A stretch of DNA of 64,000 nucleotides, from positions 124,001 through 188,000 of the forward strand of contig JAEPQH010000006.1 of assembly GCA_017640605.1 (NCBI GenBank), in the 5' to 3' direction. Both the position numbers and the translations under genes were made by a program. Positions 57,617 through 59,453 of this stretch are shown piece after piece (position 1 is the stretch's first letter; each line of letters begins with the position of its first letter). The DNA is from Balneolaceae bacterium. Its GTDB lineage: Bacteria > Bacteroidota > Rhodothermia > Balneolales > Balneolaceae. The notes under the pieces are model-generated. The model was not told where the DNA came from, did no database searches, and saw only the letters and a list, made by a program, of their open reading frames with translations.

Positions 57617-57651
57617 ATTAACAACAAGCAAATGCTTGATTGTAGAAAAGG

Positions 57652-57679
57652 CCCCCGGCAGCAATGTCGGGGGTTTTTT
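57652..57679 (+). terminator. Rho-independent terminator
   Basis: A 9-bp GC-rich stem CCCCCGGCA/TGTCGGGGG (one G-T pair) with a 4-base loop is followed by six T (57674-57679). It ends the long operon after the gene stopping at 57616. Confidence 0.92.
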
Positions 57680-57717
57680 GTTTTAATGGAGTATTGATTG
57701 TAAGCTCGTTAAGTATT

Positions 57718-57835
57718 CGTTCCGAACAACTTGTTCGAAATGCCTCATGGAACCACCGGTTCGAGAGTAATAGCCTCGATCACTCTCAATACGATAAAAT
57801 CTATCAGACAGACTTAAGCCGTCAGACAGATAATT
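57718..57835 (+). repeat. Triple-hairpin repeat, copy 1
   Basis: About 118 bp. Copy 1 contains the three inverted repeats of the family: TTCCGAACAAcTTGTTCGAAA (first, one arm slightly mutated), GAACCACCGGTTC (perfect 5-6 bp stem) and the terminal CAGACAGAC...GTCAGACAG arm pair. The middle segment CTCAATACGATAAAATCT is conserved in all copies. Shared orientation with copies 2 and 3. Confidence 0.85.
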
Positions 57836-57930
57836 AAATAATTAGGGTCATTCTGAGGGTACTCCCGAAGAAACTAAACGGGTGACGGTGAAAAGATAAT
57901 TATGTGGTAAGTAAATGATCAGAGCTTATA

Positions 57931-58047
57931 AACTCAAACCAAACAACTTGTTCGGAATACCTCCTCGAACCACCGCTTCGAAAGCATAGCCTCGATCACT
58001 CTCAATACGATAAAATCTATCAGACGGACTTTAGCCGTCAGACAGAT
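57931..58047 (+). repeat. Triple-hairpin repeat, copy 2
   Basis: About 117 bp, starting with a degenerate first hairpin (AACCAAACAACTTGTTCGGAA, left arm mutated), then CGAACCACCGCTTCG (one mismatch) and GACGGACTTTAGCCGTC (perfect 5-bp stem, extended by flanking arms). It is 213 bases downstream of copy 1 and lies 117 bases upstream of the lipoprotein gene at 58164. Confidence 0.85.
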
Positions 58048-58163
58048 GGTTGTATTACCAATCTCCTATCTTCAAATTTTATTACTTACACGCTTCATCC
58101 ATTATTCACAATAAGTTGGTATATAACATAGGATTGTACTATACCATCTAATAGTGAGGGCGT

Positions 58164-59258
58164 ATGAAATCGCTTCTTTTTAAGCTAACCATGTTTATTG
58201 TTGGGGCATACCTGTGGTTTGGTGCCTGTGGCTTATTAGGACCGGAAGACAAAGAAAAAGACCCGGTTGTTGAGTTAGAACCCGGATCACGAAATTATAC
58301 TTGGTCGGTGGATAGTGTGTATAGCGCTCCGGGTGGCTGGATGAATACGATTTGGGGTTCGTCCCCGGATAATGTATGGATTGCTTCCTCAGGAGGCTTT
58401 GAAAAGCTATGGCACTACAATGGAAGTGAATGGACTCCATATCCATATAGGGAAGGGTTAAATGGGTTCACGGGTGACTTTTATAGTATTTTTGGTTTTG
58501 AAGAAGATAATGTATGGATGGGGGGACAAGGACCAGGAGGAAGATCCATTTGGCATTATGATGGACGCGATTGGAAGTTGTTTTATACATATAAACCAAA
58601 CGGGAAAGGTGAAGCTACAATTTTAGATATATGGGGTTGTACATCCTCCAATTTACATGCGGTAGGTACTGTACCAACCGGGCAAAGCAATCCAACTTAC
58701 CAAGGTTTTATTCTACATTACGATGGCAGGCAATGGAGGGAAGAGTTGATGACTGATTTTGGCATGCAGTTTCAAAGAATCCGAGAAAACGAAGAACAAA
58801 TATACTTGTCTGGATCGGGTCCATATTCTACCCAGCTCATTTCGGATAGTGTGTCCATTTATAAATTGAAAGATAATCACTTGGATACCCTGTACTCAAA
58901 AAATCGAAATGAGGCGGGTTCAGTAAGTTTGAATAAGTTTGGAGATAAGGTCTACTTCGTAGCTGAAAACGAAGTGTTGGACACAAGTTTCATTAGCAAT
59001 TTACCTTTTACACTAACTGAGGATGTATTTGGAGTAGATGGCAGACATGGAAAAGACATGTTCATAACAACGGAAAAAGGCGTTTTGCATTTCAATAGTG
59101 AGAATGTGGAATATCTATTGGCGCTGGAAAGTAGGAATGCGGTGGTCTTCCGCACACTCATCATGGAAAAAGATGTCTTTTTTCTGGTGAATGACTACGA
59201 TGCAGGTACAAATGTAATCTATCACGGAACATTGAATGAAGAAGAAGAGGAGGAATAA
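58164..59258 (+). CDS. Propeller-like lipoprotein of unknown function
   Basis: The 364-residue product has a lipoprotein signal (lipobox Cys22, FGACG). Three blade-like repeats are visible in the first half: NTIWGSSPDNVWIAS...LWHYNGSEW, YSIFGFEEDNVWMGG...IWHYDGRDW and LDIWGCTSSNLHAVG...LHYDGRQW. This is a WG-x(3-5)-NVW propeller pattern. The C-terminal tail is a run of Glu (NEEEEEE). No function can be assigned. The gene is bracketed by copies 2 and 3 of the triple-hairpin repeat in the same orientation, which may mean it is a cassette. Confidence 0.7.
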   Translation: MKSLLFKLTMFIVGAYLWFGACGLLGPEDKEKDPVVELEPGSRNYTWSVDSVYSAPGGWMNTIWGSSPDNVWIASSGGFEKLWHYNGSEWTPYPYREGLNGFTGDFYSIFGFEEDNVWMGGQGPGGRSIWHYDGRDWKLFYTYKPNGKGEATILDIWGCTSSNLHAVGTVPTGQSNPTYQGFILHYDGRQWREELMTDFGMQFQRIRENEEQIYLSGSGPYSTQLISDSVSIYKLKDNHLDTLYSKNRNEAGSVSLNKFGDKVYFVAENEVLDTSFISNLPFTLTEDVFGVDGRHGKDMFITTEKGVLHFNSENVEYLLALESRNAVVFRTLIMEKDVFFLVNDYDAGTNVIYHGTLNEEEEEE

Positions 59259-59263
59259 TTGCT

Positions 59264-59293
59264 AAAAAAAAGAGTGGTGCTGCAACACCACTC
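59264..59293 (-). terminator. Rho-independent terminator (minus strand)
   Basis: An 8-bp stem GAGTGGTG/CACCACTC with a 6-base loop (59272-59293) is followed on the minus strand by eight T. It lies downstream of the FAD-oxidoreductase gene (stop at 59454), beyond repeat copy 3. On the plus strand no T-run follows, so it is assigned to the minus strand. Confidence 0.75.
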
Positions 59294-59310
59294 CTAAAAA
59301 TAAATGGTTA

Positions 59311-59432
59311 AACTCGTTCCGAACAACTTGTTCGGAATACCTCTCCGAACCACCGGTTCGAAAGTAATTGCCTCAGCCATTCTCAATACGATAAAATCTG
59401 TCAGACGGACTTTAGCCGTCAGACAGATAATT
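59311..59432 (+). repeat. Triple-hairpin repeat, copy 3
   Basis: About 122 bp and the best-preserved copy: TTCCGAACAAcTTGTTCGGAA is a perfect 10-bp inverted repeat, CGAACCaccGGTTCG a perfect 6-bp stem, and CTGTCAGACGG...CCGTCAGACAG an 11-bp stem with one mismatch. It lies between two convergent genes, within the 3' region of the FAD-oxidoreductase transcript. Confidence 0.88.
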
Positions 59433-59453
59433 CAATAACAATGAGAAATGAAT

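Follow-up and report, generated by a model that had tools for sequence, protein, structure and literature searches.

A three-hairpin composite repeat in a Balneolaceae genome, a probable chimera of REP elements from two RAYT systems

A lipoprotein-like gene in a Balneolaceae genome lies among copies of a short repeat with three hairpins, raising the questions of what the repeat is, how it came to lie there and which enzyme might move it. The window analysed was the whole stretch of 64,000 nucleotides at C7:124001-188000 of the genome G000 (here the own genome; contigs are labelled C1, C7, C10 etc.). It contains three direct copies of about 125 bp, all on the plus strand and each with hairpins H1, H2 and H3, bearing out a first-pass annotation that had described three same-orientation copies with three inverted repeats each. 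It is considered likely that each copy is a chimera of two REPs from two RAYT (TnpA_REP) enzymes, single-strand HUH enzymes related to IS200/IS605. In the following list, R2 and R1 are the covariance models of modules A and B, respectively.

57646..57679, plus strand: terminator-like hairpin of the upstream gene, with copies 1 and 2 beyond it
57717..57841, plus strand: composite copy 1 (module A and module B), decayed (repeat search, alignment, pair count)
57717..57764, plus strand: module A of copy 1, H1 57720-57740, H2 57748-57764 (R2, 58.5 bits)
57771..57831, plus strand: module B of copy 1, H3 57799-57831 (R1, 52.5 bits)
57933..58057, plus strand: composite copy 2, decayed, with 6/9 pairs in H1 (repeat search, alignment, pair count)
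57933..57981, plus strand: module A of copy 2, H1 57937-57957, H2 57965-57981 (R2, 53 bits)
57987..58047, plus strand: module B of copy 2, H3 58015-58047 (R1, 54.4 bits)
58164..59258, plus strand: neighbouring lipoprotein-like gene, 364 aa, between copies 2 and 3 (ORF)
59270..59295, minus strand: terminator-like hairpin
59314..59438, plus strand: composite copy 3, best preserved (repeat search, folding, pair count)
59314..59361, plus strand: module A of copy 3, predicted REP doublet of RAYT-A (R2, 69 bits; layout as beside RAYT-A)
59368..59428, plus strand: module B of copy 3, H3 59396-59428 (R1, 61.6 bits)

The composite structure of the repeat

The similarity among the three copies is far beyond chance. 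In a whole-genome search, copies 1 and 2 were 88% (E 6e-40) and 89% (E 2e-34) identical to copy 3, the self-match of which had an E value of 4e-60. Copies 1-3 were the only full-length matches in the own genome and were followed by partial ones, the significant partial matches covering the query at either ~1-51 or ~79-120, never both, and a split into the same two parts was also found among relatives (58 genomes searched). Since partial matches hit one part or the other and never both, the repeat is a composite of module A (H1 and H2) and module B (H3 and a leader). The annotation's description of a dispersed repeat therefore holds for the two halves, which occur separately elsewhere, but not for the 125-bp unit, which is not one dispersed family and is present at full length only at this locus. 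The conserved middle that it had noted corresponds to CTCAATACGATAAAATCT, which is invariant in 3/3 copies of the alignment.

Module A of copy 3 consists of a CTCG foot, H1 at 59317-59337 (TTCCGAACA-ACT-TGTTCGGAA), a TACCTCT spacer and H2 at 59345-59361, and module B of a leader, TTGCC...CTCAATACGATAAA, and then H3 (ATCTGTC-A-GACGG...CCGTC-A-GACAGAT). Counted as standard pairs over positions, H1 has 9/9 pairs in copy 3, 8/9 in copy 1 and 6/9 in copy 2, H2 has 6/7 in all three, and H3 has 12/13, 10/13 and 11/13 in copies 3, 1 and 2, respectively; in copy 3, H3 has a single mismatch, an A.A opposition that is kept in most copies of the H3 family. The plus strand of copy 3 folds far better than shuffled sequences (z -5.9), and copies 1 and 2 fold weakly better (z -1.7 and -1.9). 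The loss of one to three pairs from H1 and H3 of copies 1 and 2, nearly all of which are kept in copy 3, suggests that the former two are old. The window repeat search reported no terminal inverted repeat spanning a whole copy. Between copies 1 and 2, the sequence GGTCATTCTGAGGGTACTCCCGAAG... at 57842-57900 recalls the start of a common CGTC-type repeat, and the pattern of that repeat had no full match in the window.

Module A and its probable RAYT

The annotation had stated that no transposase is present, and the gene for a candidate enzyme of module A lies outside the window, on another contig of the same genome. RAYT-A (P0001) is a 178-residue ORF at C1:43767-44303 that passes the NCBIfam model NF047646, REP-associated tyrosine transposase (99 bits, cut-off 80), and has 4er8, TnpA_REP, as its closest solved structure; it reaches 15 bits against Pfam Y1_Tnp (cut-off 23) and is for that reason absent from the Y1_Tnp gene list. 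The gene is bracketed by A hairpins in inverted arrangement, with a triple at ~C1:43642-43705 (plus strand) on its 5' side and a doublet at C1:44309-44357 (minus strand) on its 3' side. R2 has 18 matches in the own genome and was found in 10/33 genomes, and all module-A places checked for gene context were intergenic. Homologues of RAYT-A in G005 (C5:180854+ / 181510-) and G018 (C15:639264+ / 639893-) also have A-model matches on both sides.

Homologues that are ~50-57% identical are spread through the family (e.g. Gracilimonas amylolytica) and are also present in Nostoc/Anabaena and Thiohalocapsa. Many of them are bracketed by CTCG-[TTCC...GGAA]-TGCC-[second hairpin], the layout being kept with other stem sequences. 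CTCG-foot hairpins with other stems lie beside the RAYTs of G025, G021, G007 and Nostoc/Anabaena; the stem beside the Nostoc RAYT is TTCCCAGTC...GACTGGGAA and that in G005 is TTCCCAACC...GGTTGGGAA. No hairpin of at least 7 bp was detected within 350 nt of the RAYT-A homologues of G028, G012, G026 and G023. The RAYTs of Nostoc, Anabaena and relatives that stand beside CTCG-tagged hairpins of the Nostoc stem type are ~50% identical to P0001, which suggests that this type of REPtron has spread horizontally as a whole.

Among 21 aligned doublets, 8/15 module-A pairs varied at both partners, with a covariation score of 0.328, compared with a shuffle mean of 0.104 (above all shuffles) and at most 0.075 in slid controls; pair counts from the alignments A3 and A4, which were built from hairpin matches, are biased towards structure. 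The module-A hairpins are arranged head to tail, each with a CTCG/CCTC-like tag 5'. The canonical GT[AG]G tag is absent from this position, which weakens the case for a canonical REP but not that for a RAYT-linked REP, and non-canonical classes of REP tag are known (PMC6006769). Module A appears to be the REP doublet of RAYT-A, with RAYT-A as its putative processing enzyme. Elsewhere in the own genome, a fragment of a RAYT-A gene (residues 120-160) adjoins an A-model match at G000:C14:249811-249985, which is apparently a decayed REPtron.

Module B, mosaics and the origin of the composite

The leader of module B is ~28 nt long, lies upstream of H3, starts at GCC and holds most of CTCAATACGATAAAATCT, the last bases of which belong to H3. 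R1 has 24 matches in the own genome at ~21 distinct places, some palindromes being matched on both strands, together with 16 in G001, 10 in G005, 4 in G018 and 43 in G019. At other loci H3, there called B1, has a partner hairpin, B2 (ATCCATCAGACGG...CCGTCAGATGGAT). In the sister species G001, this pair brackets the RAYT-like gene of RAYT-B (P0002; 197 residues, C33:115368-115958) in the order B1(-)-gene-B2, as in gene-free B1-B2 doublets, and module B is one end of the pair. Moreover, a G019 gene 57% identical to P0002 (C61) has an array of B1 hairpins around it; different hairpins accompany the homologues of RAYT-B in G028 and G026. RAYT-B scores 66 bits on the NCBIfam RAYT model (cut-off 80), and its protein has the HUH motif NHYH and the motif YIHQNP. 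In a maximum-likelihood tree, the A and B RAYTs, which are only distantly related, form separate groups (support 69/83 for A and 93/86 for B). Because RAYT-B was not found in the own genome, where the sole weak match was to a RAYT at C1:223 kb (34% over part of its length), the B copies there appear to be orphans. The annotation's suggestion of a non-autonomous mobile element is thus supported by a RAYT beside module A in the same genome and a RAYT-like gene beside module B in the sister species.

The B stem also covaries (0.167, against 0.081 in shuffles and at most 0.052 in slid controls). B copies cluster: in the own genome 13/15 strong matches have a neighbour no more than 5 kb away (expected 0.6), in G019 21/37 matches do so (expected 3.1), and each of the 20 adjacent pairs has both members on one strand; no such clusters were found in G001, G005 or G018. 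Same-strand clustering fits strand-specific local transposition of single strands, and repeated local duplication could give the same picture. According to a simple ORF caller, nearly all A and B copies are intergenic, and two weak B matches in or across ORFs (L211 and L215) are probably chance matches. The annotation had suggested checking whether copies are always intergenic and 3' of genes; with the location nearly always intergenic, both orientations relative to genes occur, and copies 1 and 2 lie upstream of a gene.

These positions bear on the possibility that the hairpins are RNA elements, retained as 3'-end stability or processing signals in transcripts. Copy 3 lies directly 3' of a minus-strand FAD oxidoreductase gene, the stop codon of which is 15 bp from the end of the copy, and given the minus-strand terminator-like hairpin at 59270..59295 it is probably in the 3' UTR of that gene; this location, the compensatory stem changes and the known side effects of REPs elsewhere (PMC8266576, PMC3733652) would all suit such a role. 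It is nevertheless considered improbable, as copies 1 and 2 are situated past a terminator and upstream of a gene, the orientation of copies relative to genes varies and the stem changes track different RAYT genes, as DNA recognition would explain. Moreover, an Rfam scan of the region gave no family at the gathering score, with sub-threshold matches falling outside copies 1-3.

The lipoprotein-like gene between two direct copies had led the annotation to propose a mobile or recombining cassette with copies 2 and 3 as its ends; such a unit would resemble an integron cassette or a compound transposon. A search of two genomes of the same genus did not find the gene, which would agree with mobility, and its product has no Pfam match above cut-off and no NCBIfam match. 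No A or B hairpins, however, lie within 1.5 kb of the homologues in G014 (42% and 40%), and unrelated single genes are likewise bracketed by B copies at C23, C27, C15 and C10, so that bracketing is no mark of a cassette. On these grounds the gene was rejected as cargo. The repeat itself consists of three separate hairpins tied to RAYTs, in contrast to the single large imperfect inverted repeat of an integron attC site, which was also rejected, and the cassette reading as a whole is regarded as highly improbable.

Mosaics of REPs from different transposases recur in these genomes. A third, REP-like palindrome family, C (CATAARCAAGCANGGASTNNASTCC; 32 matches, compared with 0 in a control), flanks an IS200-like Y1 transposase gene at C10:339143-339478 (locus G000:C10:339053-339848). 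With coordinates compared by hand, C lies at a constant 51-54 nt from B at four places on C23 and ~100 nt from A at two places on C33, and three of the B copies in G001 have a degenerate half-hairpin in front of them that is A-like and similar in each. The cross-system chimeras would be A-B at the present locus, B next to C on C23, A next to C on C33 and a degenerate A'-B in G001.

Several further observations concern these loci. The motif YIYNQEKHH of the C10 transposase recalls subclass 1.2, which is listed as without REPs (PMC6006769). At positions 3226-7366 of L031 (G000:C23), a 931-aa ORF has a pair of B-plus-C composites to either side, and the four share 190-630 bp of intergenic sequence. 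Long arrays of an 8-bp repeat (CACCGAAT) adjoin both B1-B2 doublets of L035 (G000:C15; 3285-3370 and 4318-4452). A second RAYT cluster (L072, G000:C1:220500-225500) has another palindrome (CAAGCGGACGCTTGCGCTAG / GGTTCAAGCGTCCGCTTGGACC) and at least two RAYT genes or fragments. No A or B palindromes were present in the surrounding sequence examined for the five Y1 genes from the Pfam Y1_Tnp search of the own genome.

The composite could have formed through the activity of RAYTs. Such an enzyme would bind a folded single strand, cut beside the foot and rejoin the strands, and short REP segments, or copies of them, would thereby reach intergenic gaps close by, with the strand kept. Here one element of each module probably came to adjoin the other, and the joint unit would then have multiplied to three. 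In the window, A occupies the usual place of B2, directly 5' of the B leader. The annotation had named empty sites in relatives as a test. The searches gave neither a polymorphic strain nor an empty site with both flanks, the search with joined flanks covering the first five and a half of eight pairs (3096 of 4480 bases), for which reason movement is inferred; homology to G001 ends on one side at the element edge or close to it, and the other side has no synteny. Enzymes of the IS200/IS605 type are not known to make target-site duplications, so that such duplications are no useful test here.

The alternative of local duplication, in which an existing A-plus-B intergenic segment was copied by recombination or replication slippage without a transposase, is a possibility to be taken seriously, if not the probable one. 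The full composites are all three confined to 1.8 kb of one strand, and repeated intergenic units, some longer than the hairpins (190-690 bp, C23 and C27), flank single genes elsewhere. The annotation had held that fewer than a handful of copies would point to local duplication, and this applies to the three full composites but not to the 18 module-A and 24 module-B matches, and the modules are spread over many contigs and several genera. Furthermore, homology between the copies extends over 110-134 bp, with spacings of 216 and 1381 bp and no shared flanks, and stops near the module edges; the spacings thus exceed the homologous unit, which argues against a single head-to-tail duplication as the source of the copies. 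Local recombination could still have made the three full composites. The chimera of two REPs remains the preferred reading, limited by the number of full composites (n=3, all in that short interval) and by the ~20 copies each of A and B, which is low for REPs. A further proposal is rather doubtful, namely that the A-plus-B composite is a mobile unit with hetero-ends, one served by RAYT-A and the other formerly by RAYT-B, and that cross-system chimeras are a general route to new mosaic REPs of Balneolaceae, able to persist once one of the transposases is lost.

Relation to known REP systems

REPs, REPtrons, BIMEs and composite palindromes are already known (PMC8266576, PMC6006769, PMC3733652). 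The CTCG/CCTC-like tag, the head-to-tail A doublet and the joining of REPs of two transposases are not described in the open-access literature examined and appear to be new. These data add Balneolaceae to the REP/RAYT world and link a CTCG-tagged palindrome class, which Cyanobacteria also have, to its transposase; the CGTC-tagged REPs, the other large non-GTAG group, have no enzyme known in the literature examined. If the chimeric REPs do derive from two enzymes, the action of RAYTs on foreign ends and the survival of orphan REPs after loss of their transposase would become testable.

The elements resemble the REPs and REPtrons of E. coli and Stenotrophomonas (PMC8266576, PMC2817692) in being short, imperfect, 5'-tagged palindromes that are intergenic, multi-copy and bracket a RAYT gene, and the conserved stem mismatch of module B is shared with E. 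coli group-2 REPs. They differ in their CTCG / CCTC-like tag in place of GTAG, in the head-to-tail doublets of module A, in the fusion of two systems and in their low copy number. TnpA_REP subclass 2.6 (Bertels group 5) is found in Bacteroidetes and is flanked by 'atypical secondary structures' (PMC6006769). RAYT-A, assigned to this subclass by motif comparison, agrees with it approximately in size and in motifs (178 aa, NH[LIVF]H, WQ/WE, YIH.NP) and likewise has hairpins with copies elsewhere in the genome, whereas the text on subclass 2.6 names no CTCG tag and RAYT-A has further relatives in Cyanobacteria and Thiohalocapsa.

REPINs and BIMEs likewise consist of palindromes that cluster and combine into mosaics. 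Those, however, combine the REPs of one RAYT in inverted arrangement, whereas here the A hairpins follow each other head to tail and module A adjoins the REP of another RAYT; the B1-B2 doublets elsewhere are closer to REPINs and BIMEs than the A-plus-B composite is. Module A is similar to CGTC-tagged REPs (PMC3733652) in its 9-bp stems starting with two A-T pairs, its short loops and its occurrence in Bacteroidetes. In those REPs the tag is CGTC, the tail is CCA, dimers are head to head and no transposase is known, compared with a CTCG tag, a TGCC tail, head-to-tail doublets and a RAYT in module A. Finally, the TIRs of P. putida and P. fluorescens, in which degenerate GTAG-1 units are combined with unrelated hairpins (PMC3733652), provide a precedent for many-copy composites of a REP and a foreign hairpin; the second hairpin there is described only as unrelated, whereas here each half has its own RAYT.
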